64,000 nt of DNA from Purpureocillium takamizusanense (lineage: Eukaryota > Ascomycota > Sordariomycetes > Hypocreales > Ophiocordycipitaceae), in assembly GCF_022605165.1 (NCBI RefSeq), contig NC_063071.1, positions 434,001-498,000 on the forward strand. Reading direction: 5' to 3'. Position numbers and translations under genes: made by a program. The notes beneath the pieces are model-generated. The model had not been told where the DNA came from and ran no database searches. It saw only the letters and a list, made by a program, of their open reading frames with translations. Every line of letters begins with the position of its first letter. The stretch's first letter is position 1. Positions 4,908 to 59,107 of this stretch are shown piece after piece.

Positions 4908-6853
4908 ATGAAGCACGCCGAGCTCGAGACCCTCGCCTCCAAGCTCTCCGGGGACTTCCGGTCCATCGAGCCCCATCTCAGGGACCTCGACAAGCACCTG
5001 ACGCTGAGGACCTACCTAGAGGGCTATGGCTTGACGGACCTCGACAAGCAGGTCTGGCAGACGCTCAAGGCCAACAAGGCCGCCCTCGGCTTCATCCGCC
5101 GCAACGGCCTGCCCAACGTCACCCGATGGTTCACCTTTGTCGAGCAGTCCCACCCTGAGATCCAGGAGGACACCAAGACCGGCGAGGCCAAGAAGGCCGG
5201 CGCCAACTACAACCTCGCCCTTCAGGACACCGACAAGGGCGTCGTGACCCGTTTCCTCCCCGAGCCCTCGTACGTCGTCCTCCACCTGCCGCCGCTTCAA
5301 ATTTGGACGTCATACTGACTCTTACTAGCGGCTACTTGCACATTGGGCATGCCAAGGCGGCCCTCCTCAGCGATTATTTTGGCCATGTCGCCTACAAGGG
5401 TCAGATGCGCCTCCGGCTCGACGACACCAACCCCGCCAAGGAGAGCGAGGAGTTCCAAGATGCCATTGTCGAAGACCTCGCCCTCATGGGCATCAAGGCC
5501 GACACGCTGACCTACACCTCGGACTACTTCGACTACCTATACGACATGTGCAAGAAGCTCATCTCCATGGGCAAGGCCTACGCCGACGACACGGACCAGG
5601 AGACGATGCGTGCCCAGCGTATGGATGGCATTCCATCCAAGCATCGCGACCGATCCGTCGAGGAGAACCTGCGCATCTTTGAGGAGATGAAGAAGGGCTC
5701 CCCCGAGGGCCTGACGCACTGCATCCGCGCTAAGATCTCCTTTGACGACCCCAACAAGGCCATGCGCGACCCCGTCATCTACCGGTGCAATGTCAACGAC
5801 GCCCATCACCGCACCGGGCGCAAGTGGAACATGTACCCCATGTACGACTTTGCCTGCCCCGTCGTCGACAGCCACGAGGGCGTCACGCACGCGCTCCGCT
5901 CCACCGAGTACACGGATCGCAACCCCCAATACCAGTGGTTCCTCGACACGCTGGGCCTCCGGCAGGTTCACATGTGGGACTTTGCCCGCATGAACTTTAT
6001 CCGCACGTTTCTCTCCAAGCGCAAGCTGGCCAAGCTGGTCGACACGGGCAAGGTCTGGGGCTGGGACGACCCGCGCATGCCCACCGTCCGAGGTGTGCGC
6101 CGCCGCGGCATGTCGGTGGCTGCGCTGCGCGACTTCATCATCCGCCAGGGCCCGAGCCGCAACGTCGTCGTCATGGACTGGACGAGCTTCTGGAACGCCA
6201 ACAAGAAGGAGATTGACCCGGTCGTGCCTCGGCACACGGCCCTGCTCCAGAAGGACATGGTCAAGGCCAAGCTCACTGGCGCCGAGGCTCCCACGGGCGT
6301 CGTGGTCGAGCAGCGCCCCAAGCACCCCAAGAACCCCAGTGTTGGCACCAAGGACGTTGTCTTCTCTCCAGAGATCTACATCGACCAGGCCGACGCGAAG
6401 AGCTTCAAGGTCAACGAGGAGGTGACGCTCATGGGCTGGGGCAACGGTTTCGTCCGCGAGCTCCCCGCCGAGGATCCCATCAAGAGCATGACGGTGGAGC
6501 TCAACCTCAAGGGCGACTTCAAGGCCACGGACAAGAAGATTACGTGGCTGTCGGCCCAAGGCTTCGAGCTGGTGCCGGCCGAGCTGTGGGACTTTGACTA
6601 CCTCATCACCAAGGACAAGCTGGAGGAGGACGACAACGTAGAGGATTTCCTCAATCCTGACACGTCCAGCGTCGAGGACGCGTGGTGTGACGCGGGCGTG
6701 GGCAAGCTCAAGGCCGATGACATCATCCAGCTGGAGCGACGAGGCTTCTACCGGGTAGACAAGGGCATGAATGATTGGAAGCCGGGCGAGGCCGGGCTCA
6801 AGGGCCCGAGAGTGGTCTTGTTCAACATTCCGACCGGCAAGGCATCAAAATAG
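4908..6853 (+). CDS. GUS1: Cytosolic glutamyl-tRNA synthetase
   Basis: Two exons (4908-5269 and 5329-6853) with a 59-nt intron give 628 residues. The intron falls inside the catalytic signature: splicing joins a phrase ending L-P-E-P-S to G-Y-L-H-I-G-H. The class I HIGH motif is at residues 125-128 and the KMSKS counterpart, L-S-K-R-K-L, has Ser350-Lys351-Arg352. The N-terminal 100 residues match the GST-like appendage that in yeast binds Arc1. The C-terminal half is the eukaryote/archaeal-type anticodon-binding beta-barrel, not the bacterial helical cage. It charges tRNA-Glu with glutamate. The start ATG has a good context (CACAATG). The open frame extends upstream of it, but without family similarity. 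Confidence 0.95.
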
Positions 6854-33111: not shown

Positions 33112-34599
33112 TCAGAGCCAAGCAAAGCCGGCAAAGAGGGCGACAGCGCCGACCACGAGCCCGGTGCCGCTGCGCTGCATCATGGCGGCTGCGGCGGTGA
33201 CGACGGGAGGGTGAGGCGACGACGTGACGGTCGAGTTGCCGCCTGGGGCGCCAGGGCCGGGGGTGACCTGAGTAGGGACCGGCGGGTTCGTGGGGATGGG
33301 CACCTCGGTCTGGGTCTCGGCGGGCGGGCCCGTAGGCACAGGAGCTTCCGTCTCCGTCTCGGCAGGCGGACCGGTAGGGACGGGAGCTTCTGTCTGGGTC
33401 TCAGCGGGCGGGCCGGAAGGCACAGGAACCTCGGTCTGCGTCTCGGCGGGCGGACCCGTAGGGACAGGAACTTCAGTCTGCGTCTCGGCCGGCGGGCCGG
33501 TGGGGACGGGCACGACGGTCTCCGTCTCGCAGGGCGAGCTCGTGGGCGCGGGAGGGGCTTCCGTCTCGGGGCACCAGGTCGTGGTGGTGACGATGGTCTC
33601 GGTGATGACTCCGCCGGTCGGGCAGGCCGTGACCGTCGGGGGGCAGGACGTGATAGTGTGTACCTTTGTGGTGGTAAAGGTCGACGTCAGGGTGACGGGC
33701 TTGGAGGAGGAGGGGGCGGGCTTGGACGTCGTCGTAGTCGAGTTGGAGGTTGCGTGGGAGGAGGTGGGCTTGCTCGTCGTCGTCGACGACGTCTGGCTTG
33801 CCGTTGCCGAAGTATGCGAAGACGTCACGGAGTGTGTCTTGGTGTGTGAGGTATGCGTCTTTGTGTGAGAGCTATGCGTCTTTGTGTGAGAGGTGTGGCT
33901 CTCCGTGTGAGAGGTGTGAGAGGTGTGAGACGAGGTGTGAGAGTGACTCGTGGACGTCTTGGTCTTGGAGGTGCTCGTCTTGGACGTCGTCGTCGTCGTC
34001 TTGCCTCCATTGATACAATCGCACCAGTTCCGCAGCGGAGGAAACACCGGCCCCTGACCCTTGCACTCCTTGGCCACGCAGTCCGCCGAGCGCTCAATGA
34101 TCTTGTCCAGGTTCCCAGGCACGCACCCGCACTTGGTGTCGCCCTTGTCGCAAATCTTGGCAAACTCCTTGTTTACGCATGAGTTGGCGCACTGGGGAAC
34201 CTTGGACGCCTCCGCCGCGCAGGTAGGCGTGGGCGTGGGCGTGGGCTTCTTGGTCGTCGTGTGCGTGGGCGTGGACGTGGGCTTCCCGCCGACGATGCAC
34301 TGGCACCAGGTGCGCAGCGGGGGAAACACGGGTCCCTGGCCCTTGCACGCGTTGGAGACGCAGGTGGCCGAGTCGGCGATGATCTTCTCGATGGTCTTGG
34401 GCGCGCAGCCGCAGTCGAGGTCGCCGGGCGTGCAGTACTGCTTGGCGGCGAAGTTGACGCAGGGCTGGGCGCAGATGGGGATCTTGCCTTCCAGGGCGTC
34501 GCATTTGTTGTCGTCCTTGTTGTCGTTGTCGTTGTTGTGGTTCGTTGCCGAGGCGAGAGTTGCAAAGGTCGCCAGAGCGACGGGGACGAGGAACTTCAT
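33112..34599 (-). CDS. GPI-anchored cell-wall protein with two CFEM-like domains and a His-rich stalk
   Basis: A single exon of 495 residues. Residues 1-18 are a signal peptide. Two related Cys-rich domains follow (about 33-101 and 127-195), each with ten cysteines in the CFEM-like order, including D-C-G-C or K-C-G-C after an Asp and a shared G-Q-G-P-V-F-P-P-L-R tail; they look like an internal duplication. Residues about 219-262 are built of Ser/Thr-His-Thr repeats with 13 histidines. Then come a Ser/Thr/Lys-rich stalk and five 14-residue repeats (V-P-V-P-T-G-P-P-A-E-T-Q-T-E). The end has a hydrophobic tail after R-S-G-T-G, as for a GPI anchor. CFEM proteins of fungal walls bind haem or act as surface or effector proteins. 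Whether this one binds haem is not shown. Confidence 0.85.
   Translation of the reverse strand: MKFLVPVALATFATLASATNHNNDNDNKDDNKCDALEGKIPICAQPCVNFAAKQYCTPGDLDCGCAPKTIEKIIADSATCVSNACKGQGPVFPPLRTWCQCIVGGKPTSTPTHTTTKKPTPTPTPTCAAEASKVPQCANSCVNKEFAKICDKGDTKCGCVPGNLDKIIERSADCVAKECKGQGPVFPPLRNWCDCINGGKTTTTTSKTSTSKTKTSTSHSHTSSHTSHTSHTESHTSHTKTHSSHTKTHTSHTKTHSVTSSHTSATASQTSSTTTSKPTSSHATSNSTTTTSKPAPSSSKPVTLTSTFTTTKVHTITSCPPTVTACPTGGVITETIVTTTTWCPETEAPPAPTSSPCETETVVPVPTGPPAETQTEVPVPTGPPAETQTEVPVPSGPPAETQTEAPVPTGPPAETETEAPVPTGPPAETQTEVPIPTNPPVPTQVTPGPGAPGGNSTVTSSPHPPVVTAAAAMMQRSGTGLVVGAVALFAGFAWL
33309..33518 (-). repeat. Five 42-bp coding tandem repeats in the CFEM gene
   Basis: Exact 42-bp periodicity (starts at 33309, 33351, 33393, 33435, 33477) encodes 14-residue Pro/Thr/Glu units. 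Differences are mostly silent or T/S, V/A and Q/E swaps. Copy number is likely to vary between strains and to change stalk length. Confidence 0.9.
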
Positions 34600-36117
34600 C
34601 CTGAGGAGGGTATATATACCAAGTTGCTACTAACTGCACGTTTCTTAGAGAAGAAAAAGAGTGACCGAAACAATAGTGTTTCAAACGAGTGGATTTCCTC
34701 AAAAAACGAGGTTGACGAGTTGTCAATGATATAAACTGAGACACGCAGGCGTTCGACTTGTGGGCAGAGAGAAGAGGACCTCGACTTATACCCTCTTGCC
34801 TCACCACACCTCCTCCACGCAGGTACCCGCCACCAGTCAACGTCAACCCCATCCGCGGTTTCCAATCGCTCTGTCCACGTACGTACGCCAGGTGAGCTAA
34901 AATTAAGCACAAGTGACCAAAGGCTGGTTCCAGTCATCCGGGGCTGCTCATGTGCCTCATTTCCGAATAAGCCATCCCAGGGCCATCGGGCGTTTAGCCT
35001 TTCTCTACAACATCAAGGTTGTCAACTGTCCCGGAGGCTCTGCGTGCTCTTACGTTCAACAATGACCAGGGGCGGGGAAATATTTACACCGAGCAACCCC
35101 TGCAAAACGAACAATTGGAAGCCCCTTCAAGAAGAGCCCTCATTCGCGGTAAGCAAAAAGAACTGACTGCTGGTTCTCGGCTAAAGTCTCTGGAAGGCGC
35201 GTCAGGGCTAGTTCTGGTGTTGTCGGAGCTGACCGCCCGTGCTGTGGGTAGGCAACCTATTTACATAACTAGTAAGTGGGTTGGTGCTGCGTGTAAGCCG
35301 GGGGGACGTGAGCCCGGACAGTCTGTTTCTTGCGGCAATGATGTGCCTGCCAAGTCGACTGCACCCCGGACGCCGCATGAACGACGGCGCCTTGGCAGGC
35401 TGAGCTGAGTGTTTTGTTAGTTTTGTCCCAATGAGGCAACCAGTGCTTTCTGGCCCAGCCAGCCCGACGGGCCGAAATACACTTGACGTCTTGTTCATCT
35501 TAGCCAAGTCGGCGCTCAGTCTGTGCTCCGGGGAGACATCAAACCAGCCGCCCGCCACCAGCCAATTGTATTTTTCGTTGTCATCGATGGAAATACAAGC
35601 ATAAGCCTCATGAGTCCCACCGATCTTAGCCTGGTGGTTTGGTTTGACATTTTGGCCGTGCCGTCTCCGGTGGTGGAGAGGAGCCGTCTTGAACAGCTGG
35701 TTCAGCGCTTCGATACCGCAACGGCGCTTCTTAATACGTATTCGTTTTTCACTAATCAGGTCTCGCAGCAAGGGATGAAGCTTCCAGAGACAGCGGGGCA
35801 TGGCGATTTGCATCGCTACACGTTACATTCTGAGGCCGTAGCGGCACAGCCCCTCCGCAGGCGTTGCGCGTCGTCTCTCTACCTGCCGGGGCCGGCTCCG
35901 TTCGTTTTCCTTTTAAAGACGTCAGGGAACATCAAGACACTGTCACTGGGACCTCACGACTCGCTTCAGGGTTTTTGCAGCTGCAAAGCACGTTCCGATG
36001 ACCAATGTGTCTAAGCAATCCCGGCAGAGGGCGAACTCTTCTCGTTGATCATGAGGACAAGCATGGTCCGCCACCTCTCATCATTATTTCGACTTGAAAT
36101 CATGCGTGCGACTGACT
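34600..36117. other. Intergenic region upstream of the CFEM gene
   Basis: About 1.5 kb with several short ORFs of no recognisable similarity. It contains the CFEM gene promoter, with a TATATATA element close before 34620 on the gene's 5' side. Confidence 0.4.
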
Positions 36118-51499: not shown

Positions 51500-52995
51500 C
51501 TATTTCGTCAAAGCCGCAGCTACCTCCTTGCCTCCTCGGATTCCCGACCTTACAGCCCCTTCCATATATCCCCGCCACATGGGCGACGTCTCCGTGCCAA
51601 CAAAATGAATATTTCCAAATGATTCGGAGATGCTCTTGCCCGCCTCCCCAGCCAAAAGCCCAGTTTTCATAATCGGACCCGGCCCCCCTCGCGCCCACTC
51701 GTCTTGCGTCCAGTCTTTCTCGACAACATGGATAGGCTCCGGAACCGGGTCGACTACCTTGCGGAACGCGGCGCGAAAATCCTCCAGCACGACGCGCCTT
51801 CGTTCCTCGGCGGAGAGCGTCGACCACTGCCGGCCTGAGGCCCCGGTGTGGAAGCAGGTGATGCTGTACTGCCCGTCTGCGGGGACGCAGGTGTCGCGCG
51901 TGAAGCCGATGGGCCCGTTGGCGGAGCTGTACTCGCCGGAGAGGTTTGTGGAATGCCACCACGGCTCGTCGAAGACGAGGACTGTCTTGGTGTAGTAGCC
52001 GGACTCTGTCGACTGGCTGAGCGTCTTCTTGCCCGGCGGGAGATCCGGGTCGAAGCGTATGCTCGAGTAGAAGGGTGTGGGCACCGAGACGATGACCCTG
52101 TGTGCCTTATACGAGGCCCCGTTGCTTGCTTCGACGACGCAGCCAGCGTCTCGCGGGGAGATCGCTTCCACAGCGCAATTGACCTTGACGCTATCGGCGT
52201 GGAGCCCCGCGGCGAGCCGTTCGCAGAAGGCTTGGTTGCCTTGCTAAGATTCAGCGGTTGTGGTATGCCCACGTATAACTCATTTACTCACCTTGGCGGT
52301 TCCGGAGATACTGACCGCCGTCTTTATGATCGGACAGCACGTTGGTCAAGCCGGTCCCTCGTTTCAAAGTGTCCAGGAAGAAAAGGGCGCTAAGCTCATC
52401 GCTCTCGACCCCCAGCAGGCTGCGCGTGATGGCGTTCACCAGTTGCGATGCCCCTGGGTCGTTGAAACCATCCGCATACTCTTTGACTGTGATGGAATCC
52501 AAACGCTGGGCATCAAGCCCCCCTGCGGGGTGTTCCAGGTCGCATTTGTCGACGTGCTCGGAAATGACCTGTAGGAGTTGCTCGACTTGACGGAGCTGCT
52601 CTGGTTCAAGCTACAGCATGTTAGATCGTGCTACCTGGCAGGGCGTCAAGACATACCTTGGCCGGCACCCCGTACGGAATGCAATGCACCTCGCCCTCGC
52701 CATCTCTGTAGAGGCTGGTCCCTCCTGTGCGTTGCTCGACCAGGTCGAACCCAAACTCCCTTGCCAGGTTATACATCTCGGACTGGCTCGTGTCGTTTAT
52801 CCACGCCGCACCCATGTCTACAAGACCTTTGCCACCGGGAGATGCCTGCACCGAAAGCGTCTTTCCGCCAATCCGATCCCTTGCTTCGAGGACAACGTAC
52901 TTGAGGCCAGCGCTGTGGAGTTCTCTGGCGGCTCGCAGGCCGCTGAGCCCGGCACCCACGACGACGACATCGACGGACTGGGGAGATGGCGCCAT
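51500..52995 (-). CDS. Flavin-containing amine oxidase (MAO-like)
   Basis: Three exons (52657-52995, 52292-52610, 51500-52239) give 465 residues. The N-terminal FAD-binding motif is V-V-V-V-G-A-G-L-S-G-L with the following acidic E-A-R-D-R-I-G-G. The C-terminal FAD-closing block is F-V-G-T-E-T-S-P-M-W-R-G-Y-M-E-G-A. The Cys that binds FAD covalently in animal MAO is absent (an A-R-G-G-P stretch stands in its place), as in fungal MAO-N-type enzymes with free FAD. It should oxidise a primary or secondary amine to an imine, giving H2O2. The first intron is very short (46 nt) and the second acceptor is CAAG. It is the nearest enzyme to the peptide precursor on the left, so a tailoring role is possible but unproved. 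Confidence 0.88.
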
Positions 52996-53890
52996 GGTGT
53001 GATTAGAATTTCAGAATTTCAGGAAAGATACTCTTGCCCGGATTTCAATTCTTGGGGCTTGCTGCATGAACGGGATATATATATTTTAATACTTCGTATA
53101 GTGATCAATCGCAACTGTAGCATGCAATGGCGACGAACGCTAGACCCAGGGCCCGATAGCCCGAAAGCCCGAAAGTCCGAAAGTCCGAACTTTAACTTCA
53201 CAATCAGAGCTGGTAAACTGCCCAACTTCGTTTCTTAAGGCCTGTTACGCAACCCGCGACCGGGTTGCCTCGCCCTATGCCCTAGAACCAGGAACTTATT
53301 CTCTGCCCCGTGGCTTAAGGCCGGATGGGAATGCACGACTGCCCGATTTAGATGTTCAGCCACATGGCCTCCGTAACTCGGCCTCCGTAGCAGAGTGGTT
53401 CGGCCCGTCTAGCAATTGCCCTGATCTAAAGCGACGTGGGCCCAAGGTCTGTTGGTATCTCTGTATCCAGCGTCCAAATACGAGCTCAAGGCACGAGCAG
53501 CAGCTTAAAGTCCGTCTGGTATGGCTCTGCGATAGACGAATGACATATATTGGTGTGTGAGGCGTGGGATTGATTGTTCCCAATGACGAGCAAAGCGGAA
53601 CGAGTGGCAAAAGTTGGCTAAGCGGACAGTATTTCAAAATGACCTCATGAATTCAGTGGAACAACGTCCAACCACCTTTGACATTCCTTTCTGCACAGCG
53701 TGGCGCCTCTCATCGAAGTGCTACCGAAGTTGACGCCGTAGCCTGATGGATGTGTACAATCCTTTTTGGCCCTGTCGGTAGCAGCCGAAAGACAGGCGCC
53801 CATGGAGCCGGCTCTCTCTCCTTCATGCCTTCCTATTGCTGTTGTTAGCATTATTGTTTGATACCGGCGTTGGTGCTTTAACTGACGTGA
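52996..53890. other. Intergenic region between amine oxidase and peptide precursor
   Basis: About 900 bp: promoter of the amine oxidase and 3' flank of the precursor gene. It holds an 8-bp tandem repeat (CCCGAAAG type) at 53152-53189. No gene recognised. Confidence 0.45.
53152..53189. repeat. 8-bp tandem repeat, about 4.75 copies
   Basis: Unit CCCGAAAG with T/C and A/T variants, period exactly 8, about 160 bp upstream of the amine oxidase start. It could be a regulatory or simply a slippage repeat. Confidence 0.8.
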
Positions 53891-54183
53891 CTACTCGTGG
53901 GCCTTTTCCTCTGCGAGGATATATCTGTTCGCGAAGGGATCCTTGGCCTAGTAACCCGGGTGAGAAATACTGCTCCAAACTAGCGGGTTGAAAACTTAGT
54001 CACAAACCCTCTTCTCGTTGGCCTTTTCCTCTGCGAGGATATATCTATTTGCGAAGGGATCCGCGCCCTAGTAACCTGCGTGAGAAATACTGCTCCAATC
54101 TAGCAGGTTGAAGATTTAGTCACAAACCCTTTTCTCGTTGGCTTTTTCCTCTGCGAGGATATACCTGTTTGCGAAGGGATCCT
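53891..54183. repeat. 120-bp tandem repeat (2.4 copies) made of one exon plus one intron
   Basis: Direct repeats start at 53901, 54021 and 54141 with exact 120-bp spacing; the third copy stops near 54183. Each unit holds one peptide-coding exon (54-60 nt) and one intron (60 nt) of the precursor gene on the minus strand. The symmetrical phase lets copies be gained or lost without breaking the frame. Confidence 0.92.
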
Positions 54184-54344
54184 TGTGAGGTTGACTATTA
54201 GCAGACACAATGTCACGGCTTGAAATTTTGAAATTGGAGACAAACCGGGCTTCTATGGACTTCTTGGCCCTCGGGACGGGCCACGGGAGCAGGGATTGCA
54301 GCGGCGAATCCACACATGGCGATAATAATAAAGTTGGCTTTCAT
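53891..54344 (-). CDS. Secreted repeat precursor peptide of a dikaritin-like RiPP (Kex2-processed)
   Basis: I infer four exons (54246-54344, 54128-54181, 54008-54067, 53891-53947), all joined in phase 0, encoding 89 residues. Exon 1 gives a signal peptide (M-K-A-N-F-I-I-I-A-M...A-A-A) and a short pro-region. Exons 2-4 each encode one copy of a unit beginning Asp-Pro-Phe, containing Arg-Tyr-Ile-Leu-Ala, and ending Asn-Glu-Lys-Arg. The last copy ends in a stop instead of Lys-Arg. The introns are 64, 60 and 60 nt, with the same GTTTGT donor and TAG or AAG acceptor. All differences between copies in the shared Asp-to-Ala core are silent, while the introns differ by point changes, which points to selection on the peptide. 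Signal peptide, Kex2 sites and Tyr-aliphatic core match ustiloxin-type precursors, and a UstYa gene is adjacent. Confidence 0.8.
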
Positions 54345-55786
54345 GATTGCGCGGATGATCCTTCTATAAAACCAATCGGCCTTTGTTCTAGGATTTGAAT
54401 GTAACGGAGAAGCTTCTTGCTGGTATGACTCCTGTCCACGGTCTGGCAGGGCGTGCGTCTTTTATACGTGGCCGCGTCGGCTCTGCGGGGCATTTGGCAG
54501 TAAAGGTCCTAAAACGGGCCAAAGCTCTTTGGTGACTGGCTTCGGAATTCTTAGAAATCACATAAATCCATGCTCGGATCTTGACTTCAGACGTTCAGCC
54601 CAGCGTAGCAGGCGGATGTCGCTTGTTGGGGTTCTTCCAAGTGCGGGCGTCTATGTAACTTTGTCTGCCATCCCCTCAAGGTACTCTTGGGTACCTGTCA
54701 ATCTCAGACAGGACAATTCGGAAGATCTCTTGATGATCTCGGTTATTACCTTGACTGGACCGCATCCCCTGTGGCATCGGCAATGATTTCGTCCTTTTGC
54801 TGCAGCATTCGACCTGACGGGCCAACATCCTGATGCTACCTACTTCTTATGGTATCGTACCAGTTATTGCTCATGATAATCTCAGTGGATGCAGCCAGTG
54901 GCGAGCGGCGGCGAGTTTCCTCTGCCAAACCCCGCGATCTACGTATCTCAGCTGTTGACGGAAACGGGCATCGCCGTGGAGTAGCATGGTAGGATCTGAC
55001 GTGAGACCAACGTGACCACCGAAAGTGTCATAAGCTCTGAAGCGTGTCGAATAAAAGCCATTGCATAATGGTTTTTATTATTGGAATTCATAAGTCGGAC
55101 TATATATCCCAAGGCGCGGAGCATTGTCCTCTCGTAGCATCGATACATGTAACCAGTTGATTCTACCATGTCGCTCATAGAGTAGCCATGATCTGCTAGG
55201 CCAAGATTGTCAACACCGTCTATATTTGTGTATCCGCGTGCAAACTCGTGGCTGCGTTCTTGCTCAGCTTGTCAGAAGTGCCCTTTTGCAAGCAGTTAGC
55301 ATTAAAATCCCGTCGTCAGGATCTGCAACAGCGGGATATAGCCGTCACGTCTTTGGCATTGTGGCCGATTGCGCCATATGTATTTCCCATTTCTCTACGA
55401 TTTTGGGCCCTCAAAAAAAGGTTAATGAGATGCAGCCAGACTCGGGTGTTGCTTGAAATGGTCTAAAGGACTTTTGTCACTCTCTTAGGAGCGGCCTCGA
55501 ACAGGTGTCCTCGCATATACGAGGTACCTGAGGGTACAGAAAAACATAACCAAAATACATCATAGATAGAAGGAAGTAACTTTTACGTAGCAGGAAATCG
55601 CCGTTGCCACCTGCCTGTAATGTGGATGATGCCTTCGGCACCATCCGTCACACAATTGATACAGATTTCCAAACCTTTCACAGACGCACCCCATTTTCTT
55701 TTGTTCTACAACACATGCTTGCCTCTTCTATTTTTTTCTTTGACGGCTACGTTGTTTAAAGACCACATTGCGTTGCAGAAATTATC
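54345..55786. other. Divergent promoter between precursor peptide and UstYa-family genes
   Basis: About 1.44 kb with only short ORFs of random character. It likely drives both cluster genes. It is less GC-rich than the core-gene areas. Confidence 0.5.
54459..54466 (-). promoter_or_regulatory. TATA box of the precursor peptide gene
   Basis: TATAAAAG on the minus strand, about 115 bp before the ATG at 54344. A consensus TATA box is uncommon in this window and fits a strongly induced small secreted-protein gene. Confidence 0.55.
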
Positions 55787-56446
55787 ATGGGCCTGCTACG
55801 AGAGCGAGAACAGTCACAACCATCCCATGAGATGTACGAGGCTCTCCTGTCCGAGAGCGACGCGGATATTCAGAAAGTGCAACTTCTTCAACGCCATAGC
55901 AGACGCTGTAAGACTTTCATCTGGCTATCATGTTTCACAAATGTCCTCTTTGCTGCGGGGATCATATCGCTGCTGGTGAGGCAAGGCACGATTGATCCCT
56001 CTCTCTACGACGCAGCACACTGGCCAGGCTCTTACTGTAAGTACAAAACCCGTCAGAAAACCACGGCGCATTTCATCAGCACAAGCATTCTCCTGCTGAT
56101 CTGCCTGTTAGCACCTGCTGAGGAGGCCGTGAAATATGTGCCGCGCCAGTTCCTTGCGGCCTTTGGCAAAGAGACGTCTCCCTACCAGGGCTGGCCGACT
56201 GACGAGCAGGACCAGATGTGGGAAGACATGTACATATGCAAGTGACGTACCTTGGCATGCACATACTCCCATGAAGGAGACTGACAGGATCCTGTTACAG
56301 ACGGGACAACATTTCAGATCGACCAAAAAGAGCACGATCGCCTCATTAACAAGACCGAACACGTTGCTATACCTGGGTTGGAAGACAAGTACATGACGGG
56401 ACTTGACGTCTTTCACCAGCTGCATTGCCTGGTAAGACGCCCGTAG

Positions 56447-56496
<50 letters not shown>

Positions 56497-56968
56497 GTCA
56501 TCAGCTGACTTGAGCTGGTATGCAGAACATGATCCGCCAGAACCTCTATCCCAAAAGATACAATTCATCCATAGTTCGAGAAGACGGTACAATCGACTAT
56601 CCCAAATGGAGACATGTCGGTAAGCTGATGGCGCCAATGTACAGTTCAACATTGGCTTGCTAATCAGTAAAGACCACTGCATCGAGTCAATACGACAATC
56701 AATCACTTGCAACGTCGACATTAGCATGATTAGATACAAGTGGTCTTCGTACGACATGATTGAGCCACAGCTCGGTGTCATGCACATGTGTCGCGATTTT
56801 GACAGAATTCGCGACTGGGCGTACCAGCGCTATGTCGATCCGGGCAATCGGCGACAGCACGTCGAGAACGGCAGGATTGTCGACTACTCAGAGGCCGGCA
56901 CCAGCTTCGAGGATAATGCGGCGGATTATGCTCCCAAAGGGTGGGATAAAACTATAAATGATCTTTAG
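55787..56968 (+). CDS. UstYa-family oxidase (DUF3328)
   Basis: Five exons (55787-56036, 56112-56237, 56301-56431, 56526-56619, 56673-56968) give 298 residues. After a cytosolic N-terminus there is one membrane helix (about 44-64). The luminal part shows the two family motifs: H-Q-L-H-C at 164-168 and H-C at 202-203, followed by I-E-S-I-R-Q and the C-R-x-F-D-x-I-R-D-W-A phrase. These His/Cys motifs are held to form the metal site of UstYa-type enzymes, which cross-link Tyr and other residues of RiPP core peptides. Intron 1 is a stop-free multiple of three, and intron 2 appears to be a GC-AG intron (T|GCAAGT); both joints restore family phrases. The partner substrate is probably the precursor peptide on the other side of the shared promoter. 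Confidence 0.9.
56451..56493 (+). repeat. (CT)n microsatellite in intron 3 of the UstYa-family gene
   Basis: About 21 uninterrupted CT units on the coding strand inside a 94-nt intron, 30 nt before the acceptor. Its length is likely to vary and might affect splicing. Confidence 0.92.
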
Positions 56969-57328
56969 GAATGTCTCCCCTTTATAACGACTACATACCT
57001 TACTTCCTTTATCGCTAGGCAAAGGGCAAGCCAGACCTTAAAAAGAATAGTCTAAATGCCTCAGATACCTTATTACTATTATAAATATTTACTTTTGCCT
57101 ATATTACTTTCCGGTCTTATAATATATATTATAGTCTAATAGAAGTTAAGGGTTATATTAATAAAGAGGGAAAAGAGCGGCAGCTTATACTTACTTACCT
57201 TATTTATATAGGGGTAAAAGCTATATAATATATAATTAGCTAGAAAAAGAATAAAAGTAAGATATCTATATAGCTAATACTTTTAATTTATATAGCTAAT
57301 ATTATTTATAAATATATTTAAAATCTTA

Positions 57329-57765
57329 ATCTTAACCCTTTAATATACTTAACCCTTAATATATACTTAAAAACTTATCTTTAACCGTTTAATATACTTA
57401 ACCCTCTATATATACTTAAAATCTCTAATTTAACCCTTTAATATACTTAACCCTCTATATATACTTAAAAACTTATCTTTAACTCTCTAATTTACTTAAC
57501 CCTCTAGATATACTTAAAATTCTTTACTTAACCCTTTAATATACTTAGCCCTTTAAGTATACTTAAAAGCCTTTACTTAACCCTCTAATATACTTAACCC
57601 TTTAAATATACCTAAAATCCCTTACTTAACCCTCTATTATATTTAACCCTCTATATATACTTAAAATCCTTTACTTAACCCTCTACTATACTTAACCCTT
57701 TATATTTACTTAAAACTCCTTACTTAACCCTTTAATATACTTAACCCTTTAAATATAAGTTATAT
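57329..57765. repeat. 49-bp minisatellite, nine copies
   Basis: The TAATATACTT-type element recurs at 57341, 57390, 57439, 57488, 57537, 57586, 57635, 57684 and 57733, an exact 49-bp period. Each unit contains two CTTAACCCT words. Copies differ by point changes only. It lies within the AT-rich block. Confidence 0.92.
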
Positions 57766-57980
57766 TATTTATTATAAGTTAAGTATTAATATTAACTTAG
57801 CTATTAGCTATTATAATTTTACTTACTTTAAGGTAAGTCTATAATATTTAAGAAATATAATAAAGTCTTTTAGCTTATAATTATAATAAGGATTTATAAT
57901 AATTAAATATTATAGATTATTAAAAGTCTCTTTATTTATGATTTTTATATAAAATAAATACTTAATTTTTCTTAAGCTTA

Positions 57981-58200
57981 TTGTAATGAACGTACTATTG
58001 CATGCGAATATAGATAGTGAATTAGGTTACGTACGTAACGCGCCTAAACTATAGGGTATTAGAGCCCGTTTAGCTAGCGAACTAAAAGCTTGAACCTATA
58101 AGCTTTAGTCTTATAATACTATTACCCCTACGCTCGTCCGACTATACTATTGCTTCTCTTACTTAACTACTAAACTGATATCTAGCGAGTAAGCCGTTAT
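57981..58200. mobile_element. Possible mutated LTR remnant
   Basis: A less AT-rich island starting TGTAATGAACGTAC, with TACGTACGTAACGCG shortly after and a TATA-like run, set inside the AT-rich block. The TG start and composition recall fungal LTRs. No matching second copy, CA end or coding remnant was found in the window, so this is only a suggestion. Confidence 0.2.
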
Positions 58201-59107
58201 ACTTATATTATAAAGCTTTAATAATATAATTTTATAATAAATAACGCTATATATATATAATTAAGCTCTTTATAAGCTAATATATTACTAATATAGTTAT
58301 TGTTTCTTTTCTTTACTATAATATATTTATTAGCCTTTATAAAGTCTTAAATAGCTTTAATTTTAATATTTAAGCTCTTTTATAGCTTTAATCTAAATAA
58401 GGCTAATAGCTTAAAATATTCCTTTAAAGATAATATTATTAACATAATAAAAAAGGTATAAAAAAGCGGCTTAAAGTAATTAATATAAGGAATAGTCTTT
58501 ATAAATAACGGTAATTATAAATAATTAAAATAGCTTAAAAGATATAATAAAATATTATATATAAATGCCTTAATATATAGTCTTATAGTCTTATATATTT
58601 CGTATTATAGCTATTAGGGTCATAACTAGCCGCAATAAGCTATATTAAATTATATAGGAAATAGGCGTATATATAAGTTACCGAAGGCGAGTTAATCCGT
58701 CCTGCCTATTCGGGCTCGAAACATAGTGGGACTAACTCCGGAGGGCAGTAGGATTAAGCGCACCGACGGCGCCCCCAGCGCCGCAGGATGAGTGCATGTC
58801 CAGGTGCCGACCAATCAGTCGCCCACTCAGTGCTATCCACAAATAGCTGAGAAAGTCGGACCATAATTGATTCCTCGGGCATGAAGGAAACGCTTCAGGC
58901 ATAAAGAGAACGCGCTGCAGTTTTGAGACGCCATTCTGCCAGAGTCGACAGCAAAAGTCCTGTAACGCCATTCTCATCCCTTTCAAGAGCATACCGATCC
59001 ACAAACTGACATCTACTGCCTGTCAATCTTGATCCCTATCTGACCTCAGCCGGAGACCTACCTCTTCTCTGCTCGCTGTCCTTTCGCACGCCTAGCTAAA
59101 CGGTGTG

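Follow-up and report, generated by a model that had tools for sequence, protein, structure and literature searches.

A 64-kb stretch of the Purpureocillium takamizusanense genome, analysed at its full length and called the window here, contains two divergently oriented genes that lie 1.44 kb apart (Table 1). If spliced as the DNA suggests, four exons separated by three phase-0 introns on the minus strand (54344-53891) would encode an 89-residue precursor in which a signal peptide is followed by three DPFANRYILAEEKA(N/H)E units; Lys-Arg (KR) closes two of them and a stop codon closes the third. Head-to-head with it on the plus strand (55787-56968) is an intact, five-exon gene for a UstYa (DUF3328) protein of 298 residues, which is the nearest gene found upstream of the precursor. 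A first-pass annotation had proposed the precursor gene from the bare sequence, and re-reading confirmed it to the base: coordinates, exon count and 89-residue length are as given, and so are both KR sites, the stop that ends unit 3 and the motifs DPF and RYILA. Its remark that no frame contains the whole gene also holds, with no single frame open throughout the locus.

Table 1. Features of the precursor and UstYa genes (window positions) and repeat arrays at other UstYa loci of the genome (positions within the 10-kb piece named)
Feature	Position	Strand	Basis or remark
Precursor exon 4, unit 3 AKDPFANRYILAEEKAHE and stop, 57 nt	53891..53947	minus	sequence
Precursor intron 3, 60 nt, phase 0	53948..54007	minus	sequence
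Precursor exon 3, unit 2 GADPFANRYILAEEKANEKR, 60 nt	54008..54067	minus	sequence
Precursor intron 2, 60 nt, phase 0	54068..54127	minus	sequence
Precursor exon 2, unit 1 DPFANRYILAEEKANEKR, 54 nt	54128..54181	minus	sequence
Precursor intron 1, 64 nt, phase 0, GTTTGT...CACAAG	54182..54245	minus	inferred from sequence
Precursor exon 1, predicted signal peptide and short leader MKANFIIIAMCGFAAAIPAPVARPEGQEVHRSP	54246..54344	minus	ATG-opened, 33 codons
Divergent intergenic region, 1,442 nt, between precursor and UstYa start codons	54345..55786		
TATAAA, possible core promoter, 122 nt upstream of precursor ATG	54461..54466	minus	motif match only
UstYa exon 1, N-terminus and hydrophobic stretch	55787..56036	plus	hand model = NCBI protein
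UstYa exon 2 (YSPAEEAVKY...)	56112..56237	plus	hand model
UstYa exon 3, first HxxHC motif HQLHC, residue 164	56301..56431	plus	hand model
UstYa exon 4, runs into second HxxHC motif HVDHC, residue 199	56526..56619	plus	hand model
UstYa exon 5, inside HVDHC to stop	56673..56968	plus	PF11807 58 bits
L007 array, 15 AEPDRHQAYI units, nearly all with KR	3908-3181 (C9, about 421.2-421.9 kb)	minus	near two UstYa genes; candidate intron after signal peptide
L008 array, six units PDILYNNQAGWG-KR (PDI/VLYNNQAGWG-KR)	5975-5558 (C5)	minus	open without intron; between two UstYa genes
L010 array, units GDLAYNKPASPE-RR	2422-1835	minus	adjoins UstYa
L012 array, units DSYALRSGWYYT-KR	9987-9649	minus	adjoins UstYa of L013
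L015 array, units DTGLYAPANWGT-KR	3447-3043 (C9)	minus	adjoins UstYa JDV02_009009
L018 array, units KDSIVIKAASYY-KR	3238-3031	minus	adjoins UstYa
L020 array, units VAEGVQGEATVF-KR, without Tyr	5911-6191	plus	adjoins UstYa

All three precursor introns have the form GTTTGT...AG. Exon 4 contains a second in-frame acceptor six bases on (GCCAAG/GATCCC), from which the unit would start at DPF, so that the AK of unit 3 may be absent from the protein. The signal peptide is predicted from a Kyte-Doolittle peak of 2.59 in an 11-residue window and from a leader alignment judged by eye. The three units are 18-20 residues long with two KR sites among them, consistent with the repeats of at least 8 residues between Kex2 sites that mark KEPs; KR is absent between the leader and unit 1. 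Each unit has one Tyr and none has Trp or Cys, which are residues of Sordariomycete alpha-pheromone cores. The signal-peptide stretch, repeats and KR sites together point to the secreted, Kex2-type repeat precursor that had been suggested for the locus. It matches no Pfam family, and it is single-copy, with no second copy of the locus in the genome searched (35,574,015 bases in 14 contigs).

At the DNA level, direct repeats of 120 nt stand in tandem at the locus. Identity is 89% in two registers and drops to 60% in the third, owing to a different intron 1; between introns 2 and 3, 54 of 60 bases agree. Six positions vary among the units in the shared DPF...KR stretch, of which five are silent, among them the AAA/AAG of KR, and one exchanges N for H. 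A simple neutral simulation gave P = 0.006 for at most one amino-acid change in six, and this value rises to 0.06 once three changes in the two extra codons that start units 2 and 3 (GA versus AK) are counted, so the selection signal alone is modest. More weight than these silent changes is carried by the context of the precursor, which has an intact UstYa gene beside it and counterparts of this pairing elsewhere in the genome.

The hand-built UstYa model is identical, letter for letter, to NCBI protein JDV02_004803. It includes a GC-AG intron (56238-56300, donor GCAAGT) whose junction yields the deposited protein; with splice sites read by hand, no in-frame GT-AG pair joins exons 2 and 3, and the GC-AG intron fits. 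A TC microsatellite (56450-56493) lies within the third intron. The whole gene, introns included, matches PF11807 at 97 bits, and its last exon taken separately reaches 58 bits, above the cut-off; with both HxxHC motifs present, the DUF3328 gene that the first-pass annotation placed beside the precursor is an intact UstYa gene. Among the best 120 of 213 protein matches, identity to anything but itself is at most 58%, a value that P0019 reaches over 59% of the query; the closest UstYa of the same genome in this set is JDV02_009009 (L015), with 45% identity over 85%. A tree was built from 32 of these 120 rows, hand-picked for taxon spread and with the window protein included. JDV02_009009 groups with P. 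lilacinum and Tolypocladium proteins with full support, and the window UstYa groups closely with none. It forms a single long branch (0.76) within an unresolved group of 20 rows, as do three other rows, and it therefore has no close UstYa orthologue among the rows used. No relative of the protein sequence was found in the PDB at E 0.01.

P. takamizusanense PT3 is an insect pathogen from a cicada that was annotated by Funannotate with RNA-seq, and its assembly has 35.6 Mb in 14 scaffolds (maximum 6.1 Mb, N50 3.09 Mb, 57.76% GC) (PMC9302088); GC content of the window is 57.7%. Searches of 5.8 billion proteins with the 89-residue query and a lengthened 169-residue probe gave no candidate relative of the precursor, under a demand for three shared 5-residue words and a length 0.55-1.75 times that of the query; relatives that have diverged or differ greatly in length may have escaped these settings. 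The absence of a protein relative agrees with the earlier statement that no described product with the proposed core is known. The same database does contain the UstYa protein of this fungus; the precursor is thus probably not among its deposited proteins, within the length ranges searched. It had been argued that ordinary gene finders would miss the gene, which seems to be how the RNA-seq-aided annotation turned out, with no findable protein. The reason offered, that no frame holds the whole gene, overstates the case, as introns are part of the models that fungal gene finders use. A limited literature search showed, among the titles listed, no RiPP study of the genus Purpureocillium. A published survey counts 7,878 KEPs in 1,345 of 1,461 strains, 22% of them with a DUF3328 gene nearby (PMC7329392), and nine dikaritin clusters are described from one Venturia genome (PMC9632046). 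The class of repeat RiPP precursors is already well known; the window gene adds a new case with an odd gene architecture.

PF11807 has 35 matches in the genome, which were grouped by hand into 17 loci, the window included. Twenty pieces of 10 kb were taken, 16 over the other UstYa loci and four as flanks, and near-identical 12-mers before dibasic sites (at least 9 of 12 residues) were sought alike in the loci and in eight control pieces. With KR as the dibasic site, arrays occur at 6 of the 16 other UstYa loci versus none of the eight controls; with [KR]R, the counts are 7/16 and 1/8, the latter at L031. This control piece, which has no PF11807 match, has, near 5712 on the minus strand, a pair of near-identical 12-mers (NLEKGIAST..) that precede a dibasic site at a spacing of 120 nt. 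In the pieces scanned, 9 of the 16 other loci have no array, and the KR scan of the rest of the window returned nothing beyond the precursor's own rows. A looser first scan (at least 7 of 12 residues, [KR]R) was read from the best 25 of 76 rows at L007 and the best 25 of 32 at L010. Matches set aside from it comprise a single L009 match (8/12, RR), plus-strand L010 and minus-strand L020 matches that overlap arrays on the other strand, out-of-frame shadows (L007 and the precursor) and seven window matches near 33 kb in a repetitive ORF.

The window precursor is therefore not a lone curiosity, as the genome has seven further arrays built in this way, each beside a UstYa gene. Array and UstYa are head-to-head in six of the eight pairs (window, L008, L010, L015, L018 and L020); the gaps, taken from the ends of the BLAST matches, span roughly 0.8-1.8 kb. 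The two exceptions are L007 and L012/L013, where array and nearest UstYa share a strand. Five of the seven other arrays need a candidate intron behind the signal peptide and two are open without one. None of the seven has introns between units, which leaves the window gene as the only one with a separate exon for every unit. At L015, as in the window, a KR-repeat precursor lies head-to-head with UstYa, but the L015 units form one uninterrupted array after the candidate intron behind the signal peptide. When the eight leaders are aligned, the only invariant columns are Met and one Pro, which any signal peptides might show. A tyrosinase match (C1:1930691-1931406, about 2690-3407 of L016) about 1.3 kb from the L016 UstYa marks a candidate classical dikaritin cluster; the dibasic-repeat scan found no precursor array at this locus.

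The precursor and UstYa genes occupy a lower-GC pocket (53000-57000, 46-52% versus 54-65% GC in the preceding 3 kb), and beyond it lies a very AT-rich section (57000-58500, 21-26% GC) that looks like a RIP-degraded repeat relic. A 2-kb query from this side (57000-59000) has at least 48 partial matches elsewhere in the genome. Downstream of the precursor is a flavin amine oxidase gene (51503-53010, minus, PF01593), a possible tailoring enzyme, and a transcription-factor-like ORF (Fungal_trans_2, PF11951; 59957-60205, plus), possibly broken or multi-exon, is a possible regulator. Farther away, a minus-strand ORF of 504 codons (33115-34626) has a signal-peptide-like start, a Cys-containing N-terminus that appears CFEM-like by eye and a repetitive tail. 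Eight neighbour ORFs (amine oxidase, Oxa1-like, DUF1688, transcription-factor-like and others) have no match in pieces L005-L028 outside the window, and so are not shown to belong with the precursor/UstYa pair.

The sequence itself displays the exon anatomy, the repeats with their KR sites, the recurrence of the pairing and an intact UstYa that has both HxxHC motifs; these make it likely that the locus is a two-gene RiPP pair of UstYa (DUF3328) type, Kex2-processed and dikaritin-like. Its product is probably a ring peptide, one with no relative in the searches made. The spliced minus-strand transcript would yield a precursor that enters the secretory path and loses its signal peptide. In the Golgi, Kex2 cleavage behind every Lys-Arg would give fragments that each contain a single Tyr (GADPFANRYILAEEKANE and close variants of it). 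The UstYa oxidase, encoded in the opposite direction, could then form an oxidative side-chain bond from the Tyr of ANRYILAE to a neighbour, with Tyr-Ile-Leu-Ala, a conjecture of the first-pass annotation, as the putative core, before peptidases trim the flanks. Ahead of NRYILA, the sequence can be read as successive X-Ala/X-Pro dipeptides (GA, DP, FA). Such dipeptides are removed by Ste13-type dipeptidyl peptidases, one of which could trim the fragment to NRYILA. Insect colonisation, competition or development are all candidate roles. This pathway is drawn by analogy with ustiloxin and epichloecyclin (PMC6514808, PMC7317419, PMC7329392).

The single Tyr per unit counts for this reading, given that one Tyr per repeat is commoner in precursors beside DUF3328 genes (65.6% versus 38.2% otherwise) in the survey passages concerned (PMC7329392). 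Several observations count against a RiPP pair. There are only three units and no KR between the leader and unit 1, YILA is not Y-x-I-x, the contig has no tyrosinase match, 9 of 16 UstYa loci lack an array, the L031 control has a loose [KR]R match and the silent-change signal weakens to P = 0.06 over all unit differences. DUF3328 proteins are also described from polyketide and nonribosomal-peptide, non-RiPP clusters (PMC12048977), which makes the UstYa neighbour strong but not conclusive evidence of a RiPP.

A different reading is that Kex2 does process a real precursor whose peptides then remain linear, as an effector, signal or pheromone-type KEP, and that UstYa serves another substrate. With 22% of KEP genes near a DUF3328 gene, KEPs without one are common (PMC7329392), YILA does not match YXIX and DUF3328 proteins work outside RiPP pathways too (PMC12048977). 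We nevertheless regard linear peptides as unlikely, since UstYa is the nearest upstream gene found and is head-to-head with the precursor, the pairing recurs at seven other loci of the genome (six by the strict scan) and every unit has a Tyr and lacks the Trp/Cys of Sordariomycete alpha-pheromones. Still less probable is a decaying or silent relic, that is, a precursor that once worked but has shrunk to three units and lost its transcription or splicing. The few units, the absence of the precursor among proteins found from the RNA-seq-aided annotation and the AT-rich repeat relic about 2.7 kb away would fit such decay, but the exons are all open, splice signals recur in each unit, silent changes prevail and UstYa is intact. 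The published RNA came from one culture condition (PMC9302088), so absence there says little. That the locus is a non-coding 120-bp minisatellite that chances to read as peptide units is scarcely credible: the repeat does span intron-like and coding DNA, with introns 2 and 3 nearly as alike as the exons, but the signal peptide, KR in units 1 and 2, the stop replacing KR in unit 3 and the UstYa neighbour would all have to be coincidence.

Within the preferred reading of a UstYa-type RiPP pair, the exon-per-unit architecture deserves attention. Since each unit occupies a phase-0 exon of its own, the reading frame would survive the skipping of any unit exon. An unspliced intron 2 or 3 would bring a stop three codons after KR (for intron 2: VCD, stop) and leave a complete one-core or two-core precursor, and retention of intron 1 would leave no core. 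Core number, and whether any core is made, could thereby be set by splicing, with arrays growing by exon duplication rather than by slippage within one exon. We offer this splicing dosage as a long shot. A stop soon after the start of an intron is expected by chance, so the sequence permits such use and does not show it. Literature passages on GigA, Cin3 and KEPs do not give the exon structure of repeats, and no precedent for one exon per unit was found in them. GigA or Cin1/Cin3 may have one exon per repeat, and the architecture is therefore not claimed as unprecedented.

These findings suggest that precursors with units split among exons can escape annotation even though the adjacent UstYa is annotated, and some of the 9 of 16 UstYa loci without an array in the pieces scanned may hide more of them. 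From an insect pathogen of interest for biocontrol, the locus contributes a predicted ring peptide that found no relative in the searches, and the genome supplies seven more candidate precursors. Eight candidate enzyme-substrate loci would make the rules of UstYa recognition directly testable.

The label dikaritin-like, given to the precursor in the first-pass annotation, is probably apt in the broad sense of DUF3328-associated RiPPs, given the UstYa/DUF3328 gene beside the repeat precursor and a product that would be oxidatively cyclised; the narrow sense is not supported, with no Y-x-I-x core and no tyrosinase match on the contig. The core rule of ustiloxins and phomopsins is Y-x-I-x according to passages of PMC7329392, with Ile at +2 in the ustiloxin type, whereas the window Y-I-L-A has Ile at +1 and Leu at +2. 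A linked tyrosinase (UstQ/PhomQ) was sought with PF00264, whose 10 matches in the genome include none on the window's contig (C4). The five-gene ustiloxin/phomopsin-type definition cited in PMC12048977 involves several DUF3328 genes and a methyltransferase, transporter or peptidase; the 64-kb window has one DUF3328 gene found. No methyltransferase, transporter or S41 peptidase is among the 18 window ORFs run against Pfam, a scan that stops short of the 10 kb beyond the window (L023) and went ORF by ORF, so that multi-exon neighbours may have been missed. UstA and PhomA share with the window precursor a signal peptide, tandem near-identical units, KR sites, one Tyr per core and a DUF3328 gene nearby. 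In UstA, ED and KR flank each YAIG, which places acidic residues beside the core as in the window (PMC6514808). UstA and PhomA differ in having 16 or 8 units rather than three (PMC6514808), as well as a Y-x-I-x core rather than YILA and a tyrosinase, for which the window's contig has no match. One exon per unit also sets the window precursor apart, a distinction drawn from the window gene and not from the exon structures of ustA and phomA.

Epichloe GigA and asperipin-2a provide further comparisons. To our knowledge, asperipin-2a needs no tyrosinase. Compared by published description only, GigA resembles the window precursor in its signal sequence, about four imperfect KR repeats and a small cluster with one DUF3328 gene (PMC7317419, PMC6514808), but it has a 27-residue repeat and a kexin gene in its cluster (PMC7317419). 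Asperipin-2a (AprY) differs from the window precursor in its 8-residue repeats (PMC7329392) and is like it in that a DUF3328 oxidase is the proposed ring former.
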